A stretch of DNA of 34,021 nucleotides from Sphingobacteriia bacterium (GTDB lineage Bacteria > Bacteroidota > Bacteroidia > Bacteroidales > TTA-H9), in the NCBI GenBank assembly GCA_021286705.1, contig JAJTBW010000020.1, positions 1-34,021 on the forward strand. The letters are read 5' to 3'. The notes beneath the pieces are model-generated. The model ran no database searches, was not told where the DNA came from, and saw nothing but the letters and a program-made list of their open reading frames with translations. Shown here piece after piece: positions 1 to 34,021 of this stretch. A program made the translations under genes and the position numbers. Each line of letters opens with the position of its first letter. Within the stretch, counting starts at the first letter, position 1.

Positions 1-49
1 TAGCAGTTTTCGTGCCTTTCGTGCCTTTCGTGGTTTAAATGATCTACAT

Positions 50-93
50 GCATCTGGCATCTGGCATCTGGCCAGCAGCTAATAGCGAGTAGC
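50..93. repeat. Heptamer-phased repeats (GCATCTG x3, then GCCAGCA-like units)
   Basis: Three exact GCATCTG heptamers (50-70) run without a phase break into GCCAGCA, GCTAATA, GCGAGTA and GCC. GC therefore recurs every 7 nt from 50 to 93. TTGAATTTTGAAT follows at 100-112. The same combination of elements recurs near 9203-9360 and at 33923-34012. A period of 7 excludes a simple coding repeat. Confidence 0.8.
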
Positions 94-123
94 CCATCGT
101 TGAATTTTGAATCGCAGATTACA

Positions 124-202
124 TTTAACCACGAAAACCACTAAAAACACGAAATTCTTCATCTAGCAGTTTTCGTGCCTTTCGTGCCTTTCGTGGTTTA
201 AA
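124..202. repeat. Long imperfect inverted repeat (CGTG-type palindrome)
   Basis: TTTAACCACGAAA at 124-136 is the reverse complement of the end of the second 45-bp copy (TTTCGTGGTTTAAA, 189-202), with one extra T. Between them the left arm continues with ACCACTAAAAACACGAAA and the right arm with TTTCGTGCC units, giving further partial pairing. The segment could extrude as a cruciform or fold as RNA. No gene lies close enough to call it a terminator. Confidence 0.65.
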
Positions 203-223
203 TGATCTCAACATCTCCACAAC

Positions 224-260
224 ATCCCCTCTATATCCCCTCTATATCCCCTCTATATCC
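224..260. repeat. Pyrimidine-rich tandem repeat, period 11 (ATCCCCTCTAT x3)
   Basis: Three exact copies of ATCCCCTCTAT occupy 224-256, and a partial fourth follows. The top strand is almost all pyrimidine apart from the AT steps. The period is close to one helical turn. A purine-rich array of the same period lies about 35 nt downstream. Confidence 0.85.
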
Positions 261-293
261 TCTACCTATATAGTTCCTATCTTACATGAGTTT

Positions 294-326
294 ATAGGGA
301 GAGGATAGGGAGAGGATAGGGAGAGG
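294..326. repeat. Purine-rich tandem repeat, period 11 (ATAGGGAGAGG x3)
   Basis: Three exact copies of ATAGGGAGAGG run from 294 to 326 and fade into AGAACAG. With the pyrimidine array at 224-260 it forms a pyrimidine-then-purine arrangement just upstream of the small ORF at 372. Confidence 0.85.
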
Positions 327-371
327 AGAACAGTCGAAGTCAGAAAAGAGTTTTCAATAGTTAAAGACATT

Positions 372-575: not shown

Positions 576-590
576 ATTGGCAGGAGACAT

Positions 591-654
591 AAGAGAACAT
601 AAGAGAACATAAGAGAGTCATAAGAGAGATATAAGAGGGATATAAGAGGGATGC
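591..654. repeat. Purine-rich tandem repeat, period 10-11 (AAGAGRRNNAT, six units)
   Basis: Six related units begin at 591, 601, 611, 622, 633 and 644. The first two are AAGAGAACAT (10 nt) and the later ones are 11 nt, such as AAGAGGGATAT. The later units resemble the reverse complement of the array at 224-260, so the small ORF at 372 is flanked by related repeats in opposite orientation. From 655 to 790 I see no gene; an eight-G run lies at 722-729. Confidence 0.8.
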
Positions 655-794
655 TTTAGAGATGTTGAATATCAGAGATTTGGAAGCATGGATATTTGGG
701 GCAGGCAGGTGAAATTTGGATGGGGGGGGCGGTTAAATTGTCAACAGGGAGTCTTTATACTGGAAATTATGGCTATAAGGCTATATATAAAAGC

Positions 795-5591: not shown

Positions 5592-8500
5592 ATGGAAAGA
5601 CAGAAAAAGTTTATTACCTGCGACGGTAACATGGCTGCTTCCCATATCGCTTATATGTTTAGCGAGGTGGCCGCAATTTATCCTATTACCCCGTCGTCGA
5701 CAATGGCCGAGTACGTGGATGAGTGGGCCGCAAATGGCCGTAAGAACATCTTCGGCGATACAGTGAATGTTGTAGAGATGCAGTCAGAGGCAGGTGCTGC
5801 AGGAGCCATGCACGGTTCTCTGCAAGCAGGTGCTTTGTCGGCTACATTCACAGCTTCACAGGGTTTGTTGCTGATGATTCCTAACATGTACAAAATGGCC
5901 GGCGAACTTTTACCCGGTGTGTTTCATGTAAGTGCTCGTACTGTTGCATCTCACGCACTATCAATTTTTGGTGATCATTCAGATGTAATGGCTACTCGTC
6001 AAACTGGTTTTGCCCTTTTGGCTTCAGGTAGCGTTCAGGAGATCATGGATATTGCTGCGGTTGCTCATCTTACTGCAATAAAATCAAGAATCCCATTCCT
6101 TCACTTCTTCGATGGTTTCAGATCTTCTCATGAGATTCAGAAGATTGAGATGTTATCAAATGAGGATCTTAGTGGCTTCATTGATCAAGATGCGCTTCAG
6201 GCTTTTCGTGATGGTGCCCTGAATCCGGAGCATCCTGTTACCCGTGGTACCGCACAAAATCCTGATGTTTTCTTCCAGGCTCGCGAAGCTTGCAATCGCT
6301 TCTATGATGCTGTTCCTGATTTGGTTGATCAGTATATGCAGAAGATCACAGAGCTTACTGGCCGTGAATATCATCCTTTCGTTTACTATGGTGCTCCTGA
6401 TGCTGAGAATATCATTGTTGCAATGGGTTCAGCAACAGAAACCATCAGAGAGGTTATCGATTATAAATTGAGCAAGGGAGAAAAGGTTGGTCTTGTGATT
6501 GTTCATCTCTATCGTCCTTTCTCTGAGAAGTACTTCTTTAACGTTCTTCCTAAAACTGTTAAGAGAATCTCTGTTCTTGACCGTACAAAAGAGCCAGGTG
6601 CCAATGGTGAGCCCCTCTATCTAGATGTATGCGAGATGTTCTCAAGACGTGAAAACGCACCATTAATTGTTGGTGGTCGTTATGGCTTAAGCTCAAAGGA
6701 CGTAACTCCTTCACAGATTTTTGCTGTTTATGATAACCTTGCAATGGCTGAGCCTAAGAACCAGTTCACTGTTGGTATCGTTGATGATGTTACATTCAAG
6801 TCATTACCTCTTAAGGCTGAATTTAGTTTAGCTCCTAAAGGAACTTATGAAGCTAAGTTCTATGGTTTAGGTTCTGATGGTACTGTTGGTGCTAACAAAA
6901 ACTCTATTAAGATCATTGGTGAGACTACTGATAAATATTGTCAGGCTTACTTCTCTTATGATTCAAAGAAATCGGGTGGTTTCACCGCTTCACATCTTCG
7001 TTTTGGTGATAACCCTATCCGTTCTACATATCTCGTTACAAACCCTGATTTTGTAGCTTGTCATGTTCCATCATATTTGACAAAATATGATATGCTGAGA
7101 GGTCTTAAGAAGGGTGGTATTTTCCTTCTGAACTCTATTTGGGATGAAGAAGAGACCAAACGTCGTTTACCTGCTCATATTAAGAATTATTTAGCAGTAA
7201 ATGAAATCAACTTCTACATTATCAATGCTACTGCAATTGCCGAAGAGATTGGTTTAGGTAACCGTACCAATACCATCATGCAAAGTGCATTCTTTAAGGT
7301 TTCTGAAGTTATTCCTTACGAGAAAGCAGTTGATGAGATGAAGAAATTCATCAAGAAGTCTTATGGCAATAAGGGTGAGGCTATCGTTAAGATGAATAAT
7401 GCCGCTGTAGATCGTGGAAGCGATGTACAGAAGGTTAATGTTCCTGCTGAATGGGCTAAACTAGATGCTAAGGTAGTTCTTGGTGATGGTGGTTTCAGAC
7501 CAGAATTCATTGCTAATGTTGCTGATCCAATTAATGCTCAGACTGGTGATGATCTTCCTGTTAGTGCTTTCTTAAACCGTGAAGATGGTACTTTCCCCAG
7601 TGGAACAACCCGCTATGAAAAACGTGGTATTGCAGTGAATGTACCAGAATGGCAGGCTGATAACTGTATTCAATGTAACCAATGTGCTTATGTTTGTCCT
7701 CACGCTGCTATCCGTCCTTTCCTTCTAAATGAGGAAGATCTGAAGAATGCTCCGGAAGGCACTCGCACTATTAAAACCAATGGTAAGGGACTTGAAGAGG
7801 TTACTTTCCGTATTCAGGTCAGTGTTCTTGACTGTACTGGTTGTGGTAACTGTGCTGATGTTTGTCCCGCTAAGACCAAGGCTCTTGAGATGAAGCCACT
7901 AGGTGAGCAAATGGCAGAAGTTGAGCGTTTCGAGTATATGGATACCAAGGTTGGTTATAAAGAGCAATATTTCGATAAAACCAAGAGTGTTAAGAATAGT
8001 CAGTTTGCACAACCTCTCTTTGAGTTCTCTGGTGCATGTGCCGGTTGTGGTGAAACTCCATATATTAAAACCATAACACAGCTCTTTGGCGAGCAGATGA
8101 TGGTTGCTAATGCTACTGGATGTTCGTCTATTTATGGTGGTTCTGCTCCAAGCACTCCATATAGTGAACACCATAAGAGTGGTTTTGGACCAGCTTGGGC
8201 GAATTCTCTGTTTGAGGACAATGCTGAGTATGGTTTTGGTTTGGCTACTGGTGTGTCTAAGATGCGTGAGCGTATTGCTCTACGTATGCGTGGTGCATTA
8301 GAGGGTCAGCTAAGTGATGAGCTGAGAGCTGCATTTACTGCTTGGTTAGATGGAAAAGAGAGCACCGAGGCTTCAAAAGCTGCTTCAGAGGCACTTTTAC
8401 CATTACTCGAAAAGAGTAATGATGCTTTAGCACATGAGATTATTTCACTGAAACAATACCTTGTCAAGAAGAGCCAATGGATAATCGGCGGCGACGGCTG

Positions 8501-9131
8501 GGCATATGATATTGGTTACGGCGGATTAGATCATGTTCTTGCTTCTGGCGAAAATGTTAATGTTTTGGTTCTTGATACTGAGGTTTATAGTAATACCGGA
8601 GGTCAGGCTTCTAAATCAACTCCTGTAGGTGCAGTTGCTAAATTTGCCGCTTCAGGTAAGAAGATCAGAAAGAAAGACCTTGGTGCTATGGCAATGACTT
8701 ACGGTTACGTTTATGTTGCACAGGTTGCAATGGGAGCTAACCAATCACAGTTCTTCAAAGCATTGCGTGAGGCTGAAGCATATAATGGACCATCACTAAT
8801 CATTGCTTATTCACCATGTATTAACCATGGTTTACGCAATGGTATGGGTCGTTCACAAGAGGAGTCTAATTTAGCTGTTGAAGCAGGATACTGGCACCTA
8901 TATCGTTACAATCCATTGTTAGAAGAGGAAGGAAAAAATCCATTTGTTCTCGATAGTAAAGAACCAGATTGGAGTAAATTCCAAGCCTTCCTGAATAGTG
9001 AAGTACGTTACACTGCTCTTAAGAAAGCTTTCCCAGCTGAGGCAACTGAGCTGTTCGCTGCTGCAGAGGAGAATAGTAAATGGCGCTATAGAAGTTATCA
9101 GAGAATGGCTGAGATGGATTATACTAAATAA
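5592..9131 (+). CDS. nifJ: Pyruvate:ferredoxin (flavodoxin) oxidoreductase
   Basis: Homodimeric PFOR converting pyruvate + CoA to acetyl-CoA + CO2 and reducing ferredoxin or flavodoxin; a central enzyme of anaerobic pyruvate catabolism in the cytoplasm. The 1179-aa length is standard for the single-chain type. In order: pyrimidine-binding domain I with YPITPSSTMAE (30-40); CoA and linker domains; a ferredoxin domain with two [4Fe-4S] motifs, C692-x2-C695-x2-C698-x3-C702-P and C748-x2-C751-x2-C754-x3-C758-P; proximal cluster cysteines C816 and C819 in CAGCG, plus C844 and C1076; and a TPP motif GGDGWAYDIGYGG (966-978) with SNTGGQASKSTP (1000-1011). It is monocistronic, with its own promoter and terminator. 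The internal ferredoxin module distinguishes it from the KorAB complex upstream. Confidence 0.98.
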   Translation: MERQKKFITCDGNMAASHIAYMFSEVAAIYPITPSSTMAEYVDEWAANGRKNIFGDTVNVVEMQSEAGAAGAMHGSLQAGALSATFTASQGLLLMIPNMYKMAGELLPGVFHVSARTVASHALSIFGDHSDVMATRQTGFALLASGSVQEIMDIAAVAHLTAIKSRIPFLHFFDGFRSSHEIQKIEMLSNEDLSGFIDQDALQAFRDGALNPEHPVTRGTAQNPDVFFQAREACNRFYDAVPDLVDQYMQKITELTGREYHPFVYYGAPDAENIIVAMGSATETIREVIDYKLSKGEKVGLVIVHLYRPFSEKYFFNVLPKTVKRISVLDRTKEPGANGEPLYLDVCEMFSRRENAPLIVGGRYGLSSKDVTPSQIFAVYDNLAMAEPKNQFTVGIVDDVTFKSLPLKAEFSLAPKGTYEAKFYGLGSDGTVGANKNSIKIIGETTDKYCQAYFSYDSKKSGGFTASHLRFGDNPIRSTYLVTNPDFVACHVPSYLTKYDMLRGLKKGGIFLLNSIWDEEETKRRLPAHIKNYLAVNEINFYIINATAIAEEIGLGNRTNTIMQSAFFKVSEVIPYEKAVDEMKKFIKKSYGNKGEAIVKMNNAAVDRGSDVQKVNVPAEWAKLDAKVVLGDGGFRPEFIANVADPINAQTGDDLPVSAFLNREDGTFPSGTTRYEKRGIAVNVPEWQADNCIQCNQCAYVCPHAAIRPFLLNEEDLKNAPEGTRTIKTNGKGLEEVTFRIQVSVLDCTGCGNCADVCPAKTKALEMKPLGEQMAEVERFEYMDTKVGYKEQYFDKTKSVKNSQFAQPLFEFSGACAGCGETPYIKTITQLFGEQMMVANATGCSSIYGGSAPSTPYSEHHKSGFGPAWANSLFEDNAEYGFGLATGVSKMRERIALRMRGALEGQLSDELRAAFTAWLDGKESTEASKAASEALLPLLEKSNDALAHEIISLKQYLVKKSQWIIGGDGWAYDIGYGGLDHVLASGENVNVLVLDTEVYSNTGGQASKSTPVGAVAKFAASGKKIRKKDLGAMAMTYGYVYVAQVAMGANQSQFFKALREAEAYNGPSLIIAYSPCINHGLRNGMGRSQEESNLAVEAGYWHLYRYNPLLEEEGKNPFVLDSKEPDWSKFQAFLNSEVRYTALKKAFPAEATELFAAAEENSKWRYRSYQRMAEMDYTK

Positions 9132-9153
9132 GGTAATCTGTTGATATAGTAAG

Positions 9154-9183
9154 AAAGGGTTCGACTTGTCGAGCCCTTTTTTT
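9154..9183 (+). terminator. Terminator of nifJ
   Basis: AAAGGGTTCGAC (9154-9165) pairs with GTCGAGCCCTTT (9168-9179) with one G-U pair and a tight loop, followed by T residues through 9183. It lies 22 nt after the stop codon. Confidence 0.9.
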
Positions 9184-9247
9184 ATATAAGAGGTTGTCTT
9201 TTAGGGATACTGGCTACTGATCGCTACATTCAGGAATTCAAAGATTA

Positions 9248-9360
9248 GCATCTGGCATCTGGCATCTGGCACCGACATCTGGCATCTGGCATCTGGCATC
9301 TAGCATCTAGCATCTGGCATCTGGCATCTGGCATCTAGCATCTGGCATCTGGCATCTGGC
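9248..9360. repeat. Tandem heptamer array GCATCTG/GCATCTA, about 16 units
   Basis: A 113-bp array of period 7. Most units are GCATCTG and three are GCATCTA; one degenerate unit (GCACCGA, 9269-9275) is followed by a six-base CATCTG. The array lies between the nifJ terminator and the 3' end of the convergent M28 peptidase gene. Immediately upstream, 9203-9224 contains a diverged copy of the GCCAGTA-type heptamers (reverse strand), and GAATTCAA at 9234-9241 recalls the TTGAATTC module near the right edge. It contains no coding frame. Confidence 0.95.
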
Positions 9361-9416
9361 TATTTGCAGATTGTGATGAAATTCAATGTTAAGAAATTAA
9401 AGATGTTAGGGTATCG

Positions 9417-10592
9417 TTAGATTATAATAACTTTCTTAATAAAAGATTCGCCATTGGCTGATTTTATTCTTACTAGGACCATTCCTTTTGAATAACCGCT
9501 CAGGTTGATGGTTAGCTTACCAGTGGCATGATGTTGACTTAGTAAAGCACCAGAAGTAGAGAATAGAGAAACCTCGAATGGCTCAAGGAGATTATTACTA
9601 ATCGTGATTAGGTGATGGGTGATTGTAGGCCACAACTTGAAAGGGTCATACTTGATATGGTTAAATCCGGTGCTAATATCATATGCAGAAGCCCATTCAG
9701 CTGTAGCACACATTACAACTTGTCCAACGTTAAACAGATAGTTGGTATCCATGTTGATAATCTTATCATTGGCGGTATGGACGAAAGAAGACTCATTCGA
9801 TTCATAAAGTCCGGTAATGATATAACCTGCTTCCTGAAATGGTACATAATCTGAGCCATAAGCCATATAGGTTTTTGCCTGTAATGTGGTATAAAGTTCA
9901 GTCATAGTCATTAATGAATCGGTATAAGCTGCACTAACCGTGTTGTTGCTGGTAGGCGCTGATTCATCTCTTTCGCAGGTTATAAAAAGGTTAGGTTCTG
10001 TCTTAATTCCTCCCACCTCGTCGATGTTGAATACAATCTTGATGTCGGTTCTTTGTGGCACCGCGATAGAATTAACATAGTGTGATGATCCTATTAATCC
10101 ATTTTCCTCAGCACTGAAATGACAAAATCTAATCGAGGTTTTAGTAGGAATAGCCTTGAGAATACGAGCTATCTCCATTAAGATGATCGTACCAGAGCCA
10201 TTGTCATTTGCTCCCGGACCGTTTTTAGTATCATAATGCGAGGTTAAATAGACAAATTTATCAGGGGTCTCTGTTCCTGTTTTTTCTATTATAAGATTAC
10301 AAAGTTGCTTTCCATTATAGTTAAAGCTATCTCTTTGAATTATTTCATAACCCAGACTACTATAGTATGCTTCAATCCAATTGGCTGTATTGGTTAAAGC
10401 AGCTGATCCCGGGGATTTAACTCCTAGTGATTCAAAGGTTTTAAGATTTACCATCATGGAATCCTGCCGAACAAGCGAGACGAGTGAGTCGACAAATGAT
10501 GAATAGGTTTGACTGAAGACACTTTCTAGTGGACAGGTGGCTAAGAGAAGAAGAAAGGTAATTCTCAATATCTTATAAGAATGATCTATCAT
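9417..10592 (-). CDS. Secreted M28-family zinc aminopeptidase with T9SS C-terminal sorting domain
   Basis: An extracellular metallo-exopeptidase. Residues 1-28 form a signal peptide (hydrophobic ITFLLLLATC, likely cut after SVFS). The catalytic domain has the five M28 metal ligands in order: H119 (SHYDTKNG), D130 (GANDNGSG), the SAEE pair E162/E163, D191 (NIDEVGG) and H272 (SFVHTAND). Residues from about 318 to 391 form a short beta domain ending GMVLVRIKSANGESFIKKVIII, which fits the type A (Por secretion) sorting domain, so export by T9SS is expected. The divergent GT-C gene shares its upstream region; a weak -7-like TACCTTCG lies on the minus strand at 10641-10648. The exact substrate cannot be told. 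Confidence 0.92.
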   Translation of the reverse strand: MIDHSYKILRITFLLLLATCPLESVFSQTYSSFVDSLVSLVRQDSMMVNLKTFESLGVKSPGSAALTNTANWIEAYYSSLGYEIIQRDSFNYNGKQLCNLIIEKTGTETPDKFVYLTSHYDTKNGPGANDNGSGTIILMEIARILKAIPTKTSIRFCHFSAEENGLIGSSHYVNSIAVPQRTDIKIVFNIDEVGGIKTEPNLFITCERDESAPTSNNTVSAAYTDSLMTMTELYTTLQAKTYMAYGSDYVPFQEAGYIITGLYESNESSFVHTANDKIINMDTNYLFNVGQVVMCATAEWASAYDISTGFNHIKYDPFKLWPTITHHLITISNNLLEPFEVSLFSTSGALLSQHHATGKLTINLSGYSKGMVLVRIKSANGESFIKKVIII

Positions 10593-10718: not shown

Positions 10719-12536
10719 ATGGATTTGACAAGAATTGAGAAAAGGTACTATGGGATCTTAGTTGTGTTGGTTTTTACCTATCTCGTCCTTAGATCTATTT
10801 ATGTCCCATTCGTTTATGATGAGGCAGCCACTTTCTTTATCTATATTAGACTCAATGAGTGGGTTCCATGGTTTTCTTATTGGGATGCCAATAACCATTT
10901 GCTTAACTCAGCTTTGGGAGTTCTTTTTTATCAATTATTTGGTAAGAGTGAGTTTGTTCTGAGACTTCCCTCGTTGCTCTCTTTTTTGTTCTATGCCATT
11001 GCAACAATAGGGATTTCTCGTTTTTTTTCAAGGGAGGTATTACGATATAGTTTTGTATCAGTAATGGTATTAATGCCGGGGTTTCTTGAATTCTTTGCCT
11101 TAGCCAGAGGATATGGATTAAGTATTTCATTTCTGACGCTTTCGGTATGGTATGCTTTAAAATATATAAATGGGGCGCAAGAGCGAAGTGCATTTGCAGC
11201 GTTATGGCTCATTATTGCTGCAACCGCTGCTAATATGTCTCTGTTAAACTCGGCAATAATAACATTGGTATTGGTATCGGTTATTTGGTTTTTACGTAAT
11301 GGGGTTGATAAGTTGATAGTTTACCTCTTCTTGGTTATACCTGGTTTAATCATGCTCTCTTTTTTCGGTACATATAGTATGGCATTGAAGGAACGGAATT
11401 TATTGTATTATGGGCCAGAAACAGAGTTATGGAGCGTTACTTTTAAGTCATTTTCGTTGATGATGGCTGGAACCGATATGATTTGGATGCGGACTTCCAT
11501 CGCACTGGCATTCATTATTGCGCTTTTTGTAGGAGCTGTTTTTGTCTTCAGGAATATTGTTAAATACAACTTTCTTAAACCGTTAAACTATGTTTATCTC
11601 GTATTTGCTGGAAATGTTGCTGCAATTGCGTTGATGAATCTTTTACTTAAGGTTAATCTGCCGGAGGATCGTACCGGTATATACCTATTCCCAATGGTTG
11701 TAATAGTAATGTTCTTTTTGGTAAATGAGATAAAGGGTGTAACTAAAAGATTTTATCGTTCAGATATTATTTTAACGCCAGTATTTGCAATGGTTCTTCC
11801 TCTTTTTTGGATGGTGAATGTGTCATTTACCTCTGTTTATAAAGATAACTATTTTCCACGCAGTTTTGTTGATTCTATCTATTCTGAGTGGTCAAAGACT
11901 GGTGATGAATATCCTCCTTTAGTTGGTGGTACAAAAGGCCGTGATTACCCGTTAGCATGGGAGTCTTTTGTTAGGGATAAGAGTGTTACGCGCATTGAGA
12001 AAAACGGGTTTCCTAATCAAGCTTGTGATTTCGTTATAATTGAACCATCGCTCTATAAAGATTTTAGGGGTAATTACCGGTTGATGGATTCTACTTCGGT
12101 AACCGGTTATTGCTTAATGAGAAGGAAAGTGTTTTTAAAGAGGAGGTCGATTGCTGTGGTGGACTGCTTAGAATCTGAAGGGCCTGATAGAGGAGCGTAT
12201 TACAACTTTAATGATTTTTATGTGGACACTTTGAGAGGCAAAGCACTTGAATTAAGGTGGAATGTTAGAGTGGTAGTACCAGGTAATGGTTGGGGAGGAA
12301 GGTTGGTTTATGAGTTAACTGACCGGAACGACTCTGTTATAGATTACCAGAGTATCCAGCTTGAGAGGTTGTCTCATAAATACAGAAATGGTAGTCCGCT
12401 GAAAGTTAGTATGCTACTTCCGGCACTTCCAAGCGATGCTTATAGGTTGCACTGTTTTTTCTGGAATACAGATTCTATTCCGCTTCATTTACGATCGGGG
12501 AGGATAAATTTGATGTTATTGAAGGAAATGGAATAG
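10719..12536 (+). CDS. GT-C fold membrane glycosyltransferase, GT39/ArnT-like
   Basis: A polytopic inner-membrane protein of 605 aa. The first half to about residue 365 has roughly ten hydrophobic segments; the remainder is mostly soluble and probably periplasmic. The first periplasmic loop carries an acidic pair D34-E35 in FVYDEAATFF, and residues 57-86 (ANNHLLNSALG...LFGKSEFVLRLPSL) match the pattern seen after TM2 in GT39/ArnT-type polyprenyl-phosphate-sugar transferases. It is therefore expected to transfer a sugar from a lipid carrier to an envelope acceptor. Donor and acceptor cannot be inferred, and no lipid-A or glycan cluster is adjacent. It is followed, after a 118-nt gap in which I see no terminator, by a T9SS cargo gene. 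Confidence 0.75.
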   Translation: MDLTRIEKRYYGILVVLVFTYLVLRSIYVPFVYDEAATFFIYIRLNEWVPWFSYWDANNHLLNSALGVLFYQLFGKSEFVLRLPSLLSFLFYAIATIGISRFFSREVLRYSFVSVMVLMPGFLEFFALARGYGLSISFLTLSVWYALKYINGAQERSAFAALWLIIAATAANMSLLNSAIITLVLVSVIWFLRNGVDKLIVYLFLVIPGLIMLSFFGTYSMALKERNLLYYGPETELWSVTFKSFSLMMAGTDMIWMRTSIALAFIIALFVGAVFVFRNIVKYNFLKPLNYVYLVFAGNVAAIALMNLLLKVNLPEDRTGIYLFPMVVIVMFFLVNEIKGVTKRFYRSDIILTPVFAMVLPLFWMVNVSFTSVYKDNYFPRSFVDSIYSEWSKTGDEYPPLVGGTKGRDYPLAWESFVRDKSVTRIEKNGFPNQACDFVIIEPSLYKDFRGNYRLMDSTSVTGYCLMRRKVFLKRRSIAVVDCLESEGPDRGAYYNFNDFYVDTLRGKALELRWNVRVVVPGNGWGGRLVYELTDRNDSVIDYQSIQLERLSHKYRNGSPLKVSMLLPALPSDAYRLHCFFWNTDSIPLHLRSGRINLMLLKEME

Positions 12537-31879: not shown

Positions 31880-33784
31880 ATGGGTAAAATTATTGGAATC
31901 GACTTAGGAACCACCAACTCATGTGTTGCCGTAATGGAAGGTAACGAGCCTGTTGTGATTCCCAACAGTGAAGGAAGAAGAACAACTCCTTCAATCGTAG
32001 CATTTACAGAAAATGGAGAGAGAAAGGTAGGTGATCCTGCAAAACGTCAAGCTATCACCAATCCTCATAAAACCGTATATTCAATTAAACGTTTTATGGG
32101 AGAGAACTTTGATCGCGTTAATGCGGAAGTATCAAGGGTTCCTTATAAAGTGGTAAAAGGTGATAATAACACTCCACGTGTTGTGATTGATGATCGTCAA
32201 TTTACTCCTCAAGAGATCTCTGCCATGGTTCTTCAAAAGATGAAGAAGACCGCAGAGGATTATCTTGGACAGGAGGTGACAGAAGCCGTTATTACTGTTC
32301 CCGCTTATTTTAGCGATTCACAGCGTCAGGCTACAAAAGAGGCTGGTGAGATTGCTGGTTTAAAGGTTAGACGTATTATAAATGAACCAACAGCTGCTGC
32401 CTTGGCTTATGGCCTTGATAAGAAGCATCATGATATGAAGATCGCCGTTTATGACTTAGGTGGAGGTACATTTGATGTATCTATCCTTGAGTTAGGTGAT
32501 GGTGTATTTGAGGTGAAATCGACAAATGGAGATACCCACTTAGGTGGTGACGACTTCGATCAAGCGGTTATCAACTGGTTGGCTGATGAGTTTAAGAATG
32601 ATGAGGGCATTGATCTTCGCCGTGATGCGATGGCCTTACAACGTTTGAAAGAGGCTGCTGAAAAAGCTAAGATTGAGCTGTCAAGTTCAAATGAGACAGA
32701 GATCAATCTTCCTTACATCATGCCTGTTGATGGCGTACCTAAACACTTGGTTCGCAAATTGACCCGTGCAAAATTCGAAATGCTTATTGATGATTTGGTT
32801 AAGCGTACTATTGAGCCCTGTCGTAAGGCACTTCAAGATGCTAACCTTCAGGCTTCAGATATTGATGAGGTTATTCTGGTTGGTGGATCAACTCGTGTAC
32901 CTATCATTCAAAAGGTAGTGGAAGATTTCTTCCGTAAGTCTCCTTCAAAGGGTGTAAATCCTGACGAAGTGGTAGCTGTTGGTGCTGCAATTCAGGGTGG
33001 TGTATTAACAGGTGAAGTAAAGGATGTACTTCTTCTTGATGTAACTCCTTTGTCATTAGGTATCGAGACACTGGGTGGTGTAATGACTCGCCTGATAGAA
33101 TCAAATACTACTATTCCTACCCGCAAGTCAGAAACATTCTCTACTGCAAGCGATAGCCAGCCTTCAGTTGAAATCCATATCCTACAAGGTGAGCGTCCTA
33201 TGGCTAACCAGAATAAGAGTCTTGGTCGCTTTCACTTAGATGGTATCCCCCCTGCACCACGTGGTGTTCCTCAGATTGAGGTAACTTTTGATATCGATGC
33301 TAATGGTATTCTACATGTTAGTGCAAAGGATAAAGCAACTGGCAAGTCACAGCAGATTCGTATTGAGGCCTCTTCTGGTTTGACCGATGAAGAGATCAAG
33401 AGAATGAAGGCTGAAGCAGAAGCTAATGCTGATGCAGACAAGAAAGCTAAAGAGCAAATTGATAAGCTGAACTCAGCCGATAGCATGATCTTCCAGACTG
33501 AAAAGCAACTGAAAGAGTATGGTGATAAACTACCTGCTGATAAAAAGGGTGCTATTGAGAGCGCATTAGAGCAACTAAAGAGTGCTCATAAGGCTCAGGA
33601 TATTGCTGGTATTGATGCTGCAATGGAGGCCTTAAACCAAGCATGGCAGGCTGCAAGTCAGGATATGTATAATGCTACCAACCAACAGGGTGGTCAAACT
33701 GATCCTAACGCTGGTGGTCAGCAGGGCAACAACGGCGGCAAAGATGGTGCTGTTGAAGATGCAGACTTTGAAGAGGTGAAGTAA
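31880..33784 (+). CDS. dnaK: Hsp70 chaperone DnaK
   Basis: ATP-dependent cytoplasmic chaperone, 634 aa, full length. The nucleotide-binding domain opens [20 protein letters not shown]; later signatures include [18 protein letters not shown] and [17 protein letters not shown]. The substrate-binding domain contains [21 protein letters not shown] helical lid follows, then a Gln/Gly/Asn-rich tail and the C-terminus DADFEEVK. No grpE or dnaJ is adjacent, so dnaK stands alone here, with a strong terminator after it. Confidence 0.99.
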
Positions 33785-33922: not shown

Positions 33923-34012
33923 AGCCAGTAGCCAGTTGTCAGTAGCTGTTTAGTGCTTGCAAAGCCTTGAATTCTTGAATTTTGAATTTAGCCAGCGGCC
34001 AGTAGCCAGCAG
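33923..34012. repeat. Heptamer-phased repeats (GCCAGTA type) with TTGAATTTTGAAT module
   Basis: GCCAGTA, GCCAGTT, GTCAGTA and GCTGTTT follow each other at 7-nt steps from 33923. TTGAATTCTTGAATTTTGAAT lies at 33967-33987, then GCCAGCG, GCCAGTA, GCCAGCA and GC (33991-34012) are again in steps of 7. The same units and module occur at 50-112. No gene is present between the dnaK terminator and the window end. Confidence 0.8.
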
Positions 34013-34021
34013 CTCATGTCT

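Follow-up and report, generated by a model that had tools for sequence, protein, structure and literature searches.

What are the tandem repeats of seven-nucleotide period that lie between the genes of a Bacteroidales genome, and how do they come to be there? The stretch that raises this question, hereafter the window, is one complete contig (C140; GenBank JAJTBW010000020.1) of 34,021 bp from the draft, probably metagenome-assembled genome of a Sphingobacteriia bacterium (GCA_021286705.1; 4.16 Mb in 322 contigs), in which heptamers such as GCATCTG repeat in register at three loci. We found that in other organisms heptamer arrays arrive together with a gene of the S23 family (23S_rRNA_IVP, PF05635) at a formerly empty site. 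We propose that such heptamer arrays represent the two arms of a small insertion element. Its sole gene would be an S23-family open reading frame (ORF) for an Avd-like four-helix bundle. Such an element would comprise a left array of about 3-40 seven-base units, an S23 ORF of about 120 codons and a right array of reverse-complement units, and would insert where a host gene ends, at its stop codon or just beside it. That this element class, with arms and S23 gene inserted as one, is real appears highly probable to us, and for the arrays of the window being its ORF-less relatives we see the chances as evenly balanced.

S23 proteins (annotated as 'four helix bundle protein') were encoded in 111 of the 149 genomes sampled from the order Bacteroidales, a sample that includes this genome and spans at least 119 families. 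Loci were picked by protein score alone and examined for arrays of period 5-12 within 150 bp of the gene, using size-matched random ORFs and ParE toxin genes as controls. Arrays were present at 40 of 55 Bacteroidales S23 loci, as compared with 7 of 163 random ORFs (Fisher p = 4e-24) and none of 19 ParE genes; 38 of the S23 flanks showed period 7 and 20 showed period 8. When the upstream flank was aligned with the reverse complement of the downstream flank (alignment score > 16), inverted flanks were detected at 32/55 S23 loci, versus 1/163 random ORFs, 0/19 ParE genes and 2/270 mismatched S23 flank pairs. Unit sequences vary among the S23 loci of one genome, and the match between the two arms is therefore local. 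Outside the Bacteroidales, arrays were found at 18 of 29 S23 loci, a share that may be raised by the choice of genomes, which were reached through a TTGAATT-bearing match; nearly all of these arrays were of period 7 (25 flanks), and 13 of the 29 loci had inverted flanks. In one Anabaena (locus L461), TTGAATT heptamers form the arms around the S23 gene. In 56 of 76 cases the S23 gene and the genes on either side of it shared one strand, and the array started at a median of 9 nt from the upstream stop codon (within 25 nt in 24/45). In the genome of the window itself, (GCCAGYN)n blocks some 300 bp long frame the S23 gene of contig C192, and their AGCCAGT/AGCTAGC heptamers match in type those of the genome's solo arrays. 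On contig C38, the S23 gene is framed by GAATTAG-type units.

Closed plasmids of cultured cyanobacteria provided direct evidence of insertion. The best lag was 7 on at least one side in 12/12 plasmid S23 loci, and comparison of six occupied sites with their empty counterparts showed the arrays to be missing from the empty site in every case. The pairs were as follows:

L506 occupied, L510 empty; flanks 98-99%; GTAAT on both sides
L517 occupied, L502 empty; TTCTA on both sides
L504 occupied, L512/L513 empty
L509/L521 occupied, L514 empty
L502 occupied, L516 empty
L498 occupied, L520 empty

The empty site of L510 reads AAAAAGTAATTAACAAAT, and in L506 the array-S23-array unit stands between AAAAAGTAAT and GTAATTAACAAAT; likewise, L502 reads GGTTCTAGGTTATGC, and in L517 the unit stands between GGTTCTA and TTCTAGTTATGC. 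All six insertions were at or beside a stop codon. Target duplications of 5 bp were clear at two sites, one of 3 bp was seen at a third, and those of the other three were ambiguous or replaced. A further locus, L515, showed the left junction of L509/L521 and GGGAAC/GTTCCC arms without the S23 ORF, indicating that solo arms can remain after loss of the ORF, and at L511 only the left array was present, beside a decayed ORF. Between the two Nostoc plasmids L509 and L521, the right arm differed by exactly one 7-nt unit (6 versus 5). Since these plasmids are closed and come from cultured strains, the worry about draft assemblies is removed. It might otherwise be argued that the arrays are an assembly artefact of a metagenome-assembled genome, given its 322 contigs and the many arrays at contig ends; with the same architecture in closed plasmids, and with internal arrays of the window such as 9248-9360 flanked by unique sequence, we consider this extremely improbable.

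The element resembles the intervening sequences of 23S rRNA, stem-loops with an S23 ORF that are excised by RNase III, as in Coxiella and Leptospira (PMC4990558). In both, the S23 ORF lies inside complementary stem-loop arms within a transcribed unit, and the occurrence is sporadic. In contrast to the rRNA intervening sequences, the elements described here lie between protein genes at stop codons, their arms are locus-specific arrays of 7-nt (8-nt) units, and ORF-less forms occur. Folded as RNA, the L509 element formed a long stem with the ORF inside it (z = -6.2). By analogy with the rRNA intervening sequences, the paired arms in a transcript may fold into a stem that RNase III could cut, which would make an insertion between genes cheap for the host; alternatively, copying from one arm to the other at the DNA level may maintain their match. 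PF05635 proteins are reported to resemble Avd of diversity-generating retroelements in sequence and fold (PMC10053308).

Several further observations concern individual S23 loci. Four S23 genes without arrays (L113, L424, L426 and L415) share, as judged by eye, one conserved gene neighbourhood, in which the S23 paralog precedes a gene encoding MAILKPFKGLRPPKEIA...; this paralog is probably a settled, domesticated ortholog. In two genera, S23 elements lie before the same sugar-transferase-like gene (L110 on C192 of this genome and L400 in genome G003), with S23 proteins 59% identical and related heptamers, AGCCAGT and AGCCAAT. At L414 and L418 (genomes G029 and G142), S23 elements with GTGTGGG-type short-period arms are apparently inserted between tRNA genes.

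The arrays and modules of the window, with array copy numbers and percentages from Tandem Repeats Finder (TRF), are these:

8-32, plus strand: period-9 array of TTTCGTGCC (TRF)
50-72, plus strand: heptamer array GCATCTG, 3.3 copies, 100% (TRF)
71-93, plus strand: GCCAGCA GCTAATA GCGAGTA GC, in register with the GCATCTG array
100-112, plus strand: TTGAATT heptamer module TTGAATTTTGAAT, 106 copies genome-wide
127-195, plus strand: inverted period-9 arms AACCACGAA... and TTTCGTGCC... with a short loop and no ORF, folding as a hairpin
224-327, plus strand: mutually inverted period-11 arms ATCCCCTCTAT (224-264) and ATAGGGAGAGG (294-327)
584-712, minus strand: second period-11 arm GAGACATAAGA, which repeats in inverted form the 'type II' end of the composite repeat described below
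9214-9247, minus strand: TTGAATTC module in reverse orientation, reading GCTAATCTTTGAATTCCTGAATG in reverse complement
9248-9360, plus strand: main heptamer array GCATCTG/GCATCTA, 16.3 copies, 90% (TRF)
33923-33946, plus strand: weak heptamer array AGCCAGT (TRF)
33967-33989, plus strand: TTGAATT heptamer module, with TTGAATTTTGAAT at 33975
33990-34013, plus strand: weak heptamer array AGCCAGC at the contig end (TRF)

The original prediction, made from the window alone, held that heptamers beginning with GC repeat in register at three loci outside coding sequence, next to a shared module at two of them and a related one at the third. TRF bore this out, as did autocorrelation at lag 7, which peaked at 27/28 at position 9302 as compared with 15-20 when the window was shuffled 50 times (Markov). 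At 52 and at 33924-33975 the scores were 17-20, the AGCCAGY arrays of the latter locus being weak (3.4 copies, 76%); these two loci, which are the ends of the contig, are too short to stand alone but are copies of a genome-wide family. The main array had been placed at 9203-9360; an array does occupy 9248-9360, and 9203-9247 is not itself one, the related module lying there at 9214-9247 on the other strand. The shared module is TTGAATTTTGAAT, present at 100 and 33975 and found together with GC-heptamers among 74 aligned contexts of the genome; TTGAATT is itself a heptamer. All three loci lie between protein genes, not inside an rRNA gene. The main array is situated between the convergent genes for PFOR (5592-9131, plus strand) and an M28 peptidase (9417-10592, minus strand) and starts beyond a stem-loop with a T run near 9158-9185, which by eye is like a PFOR terminator; the array at 33923-33946 is downstream of dnaK (31880-33784) and its terminator-like hairpin (by eye). 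The best M28 peptidases of same-family genomes were 28-32% identical, and none gave an orthologous junction to compare with the window locus.

These arrays form part of a mosaic repeat that is dispersed over the genome in copies at many sites. Alignment of 74 distinct TTGAATTTTGAAT contexts revealed one recurrent module order, in which GCATCTG/GGCTTCT-type heptamers lead to GCCAGCAGCTAATAGCCAGTAGC-type heptamers and TTGAATT heptamers, then either to a linker with inverted period-9 arms (ACCACGAAA / TTTCGTGCC) or to a different linker in their place, and finally to period-11 arrays that fold back on each other. For most pieces BLAST detected copies of about 80-97% identity on dozens of contigs; copies of the 584-712 arm on other contigs were mostly 84-96% identical, and the AGCCAGCAGCTAATAGC-type string formed by the heptamers of 71-93 was present again at many loci. 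Positions 1-712 of the window are an island of this composite repeat, whose inverted arms, of period 9 and of period 11, surround one shared centre, ATAGGGAGAGG, and the right half of the island was found again at many contig ends. Between its two period-11 arms lies an open frame of 81 residues (330-575) that gave no Pfam match and may be a truncated gene. Because many composite copies end at contig ends, the repeat probably ranks among the chief causes of the assembly's fragmentation.

The fixed module order at 74 contexts, the intergenic and closely similar copies, and the folding of two islands better than shuffles (z = -4.15 and -4.12) would all suit a miniature inverted-repeat transposable element (MITE) or a similar non-autonomous element with internal tandem units that owes its movement to an ordinary transposase acting in trans and has no relation to S23. 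BrickBuilt of Porphyromonas gingivalis (PMC4596501) is a precedent, being likewise a dispersed intergenic element with internal tandem units in the Bacteroidales, and the genome has two Y1 transposase genes. One of these (C44, locus L304; 9525-9869) lies in a RAYT-like arrangement between same-strand TTGAATTTTGAAT repeats (GAATCTGGAATCATGAATCCAGA) spanning 9101-10366, the TTGAATTTTGAAT copies being at 9101 and 10354; no palindromic REP was defined there. However, BrickBuilt has a 23-nt unit with leader and tail ends and no S23, whereas the units here are of 7, 9 and 11 nt with undefined ends; the composite copies share no common fixed ends, having two alternative right halves (types I and II) and many partial forms, and no terminal inverted repeat or target duplication was definable in this genome. 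We therefore regard an explanation of this kind as distinctly unlikely.

Genome-wide, period-7 repeats were in clear excess over a reversed control, as the original prediction required: (GCATCTG)3 occurred 19 times versus 0, TTGAATTTTGAAT 106 times versus 0, and (AGCNNNN)3AGC 147 times versus 3. An unbiased sample of 243 kb of the genome (30 kb noncoding, 212 kb coding) contained 11 loose lag-7 segments in noncoding DNA (shuffle mean 0.8) and none in coding DNA, in agreement with the predicted avoidance of coding sequence, and strict arrays of any period were likewise absent from its coding DNA. Periods 7, 9 and 11 were all enriched in the noncoding part, so that period 7 is not special in this genome; strict period-11 arrays were the commonest (13 versus 1 for period 7). 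These data invite the explanation that the arrays are short tandem repeats born by slippage in relaxed intergenic DNA and copied by homologous exchange, S23 genes merely favouring such places. Restriction to noncoding DNA, coexistence of three periods, the majority of arrays without S23 and shifts of copy number by whole units are what slippage would produce. However, inverted locus-specific arms on both sides of S23 genes, together with array-free empty sites, indicate that arrays enter with the ORF, and the composite stretches outside the arrays, about 80-97% alike between contigs, require element copying as well. We consider slippage as the whole explanation rather unlikely.

Among relatives, the unit family in its exact sequence proved peculiar to this genome: AGCCAGYAGCCAGYAGC occurred 26 times here and 0-3 times in each of the other 148 genomes of the order. 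Genome G142, from another family of the order, has its own heptamers, (CGAYGAC)n with inverted GTCCGTC units, which came to light by accident through the reversed control; such pairs lie at gene ends, for example at L329, L333 and L336. Yet other heptamers were found in other relatives. At L307 (genome G006), a hexamer array (TTGGCN)n runs straight into an inverted heptamer array (GCCANNA)n, so that the arms of a single hairpin differ in period (9210-9436 and 10776-10955). In a cross-phylum scan for TTGAATTTTGAAT near AGCCAG, which gave many matches, of which by our estimate about 58 exact ones were expected by chance and only the array-bearing ones were used, the matches listed included TTGAATT arrays in cyanobacteria, Bacteroidota, Acidobacteriota, Deltaproteobacteria and Patescibacteria. 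Viral contigs gave only two GCATCTG array matches, both without the composite repeat. The predicted constancy of the period under a changing heptamer thus holds across lineages and not just in this genome, and the predicted likeness to cyanobacterial heptamer families extends to identical TTGAATT arrays. The accompanying suggestion, that this genome possesses a slippage hot spot or a mechanism dedicated to expansion, was too narrow for a phenomenon that spans phyla and in which arrays elsewhere arrive as inserted arms, though unit-wise change does occur, as in the 6 versus 5 units of the Nostoc plasmids.

Two described families of heptamers bear comparison. Short tandemly repeated repetitive (STRR) sequences of cyanobacteria and Xanthomonas, with units GGGGAYT and GGGAATC (PMC4692102), are likewise seven-nucleotide tandem units, intergenic, genome-wide, in many copies of variable number and outside coding sequence; in contrast to the GCATCTG, GCCAGYN and TTGAATT units seen here, they have been described as solitary, G-quadruplex-prone and without S23 association or inverted arms. 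TAACTGA repeats of Beggiatoaceae, cyanobacteria and some Bacteroidetes (PMC4679880) share the period of 7 and the intergenic location, and the same study reports mixed heptamers, 7-nt indels, repeat-ended contigs and rearrangement at such sites. Unlike the arrays described here, they have one fixed unit, which is not among the units of the window, mostly just upstream of start codons in BOGUAY, and no S23 link has been reported for them. A literature search, from which most subscription papers were absent, brought up no publication that connects heptamer arrays with S23 genes. For the TAACTGA repeats a regulatory role upstream of start codons was proposed (PMC4679880), and the arrays here, also intergenic, might similarly be protein- or ribosome-binding sites in untranslated regions. 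We hold this to be very improbable, as the arrays of the window are situated beyond terminators or in the gap between convergent genes, the arrays of this genome have no favoured position upstream of starts, and the unit sequence is not conserved across relatives.

Do the window arrays, then, belong with the S23 elements? The link is drawn from the heptamer type that they have in common with the C192 element, from the general association of S23 genes with arrays, and from inverted partners scoring beyond all 12 shuffles at 24 of 68 arrays of this genome (about 5 expected). They may be ORF-less, rearranged members or spread-out remnants of the S23 system, which would grow and shrink by unit-wise slippage while their sequence drifts freely and the period is kept, and which may be tolerated because they lie outside genes. 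Several results weigh against the proposal. None of the three window loci had an inverted partner within 300 bp, the window contains no S23 ORF, the main array alone (9248-9360) folded no better than shuffles (z = +1.0), and the arrays lie beyond terminator-like hairpins, not at stop codons. Solo arrays are far more numerous than S23 genes; beside the sampled solo arrays of this genome no S23 remnant was seen, only 4 intact genes being present, and 867 kb of random stretches from relatives, with about 16 period-7/8 arrays, contained no S23 gene. The joining of heptamers to period-9 and period-11 arrays is not explained by S23. As for the element itself, clear target duplications were confined to 2 of the 6 sites, and G.U pairs (76) did not exceed A.C (113) in the S23 arms, which gives no indication that pairing is maintained in the sense RNA. 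Membership of the window arrays in the S23 system thus appears to us neither favoured nor disfavoured by the balance of these data.

The period-9 arrays suggested a broader proposal. GxxExxY genes (PF13366, PD-(D/E)XK) lay between period-9 arrays at both of the two loci found among those examined: L097 (18277-18651, ACGGATTTT units), on the C192 contig of this genome that also carries an S23 gene, and L327 (1404-1814, CACAGATTA units) in G142. On plasmids, 3 of 5 copies (L494, L495 and L497) had best lag 9 on both sides, with modest scores in a small, uncontrolled sample; among viral contigs, no GxxExxY relative was confirmed. The TTTCGTGCC arrays of the window are of period 9 without an ORF. 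It is conceivable, though we would call it doubtful, that small non-transposase ORFs live between period-specific arrays, S23 with 7 (8) and GxxExxY with 9, and that the widespread, unexplained bacterial heptamer and nonamer arrays, including the composite islands of this genome, are ORF-less members of such classes. If this is true, the period-coded classes would be mobile elements defined by the period and complementarity of their arms and not by arm sequence.

The S23 link offers a possible origin for heptamer repeats, which have been known for decades without an accepted one, in cyanobacteria, Xanthomonas, Beggiatoaceae and Bacteroidetes. It would also account for many broken contigs in draft genomes. 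Two open questions, the function of S23 proteins and the origin of the heptamers, would then be joined, as parts of one inserting element.
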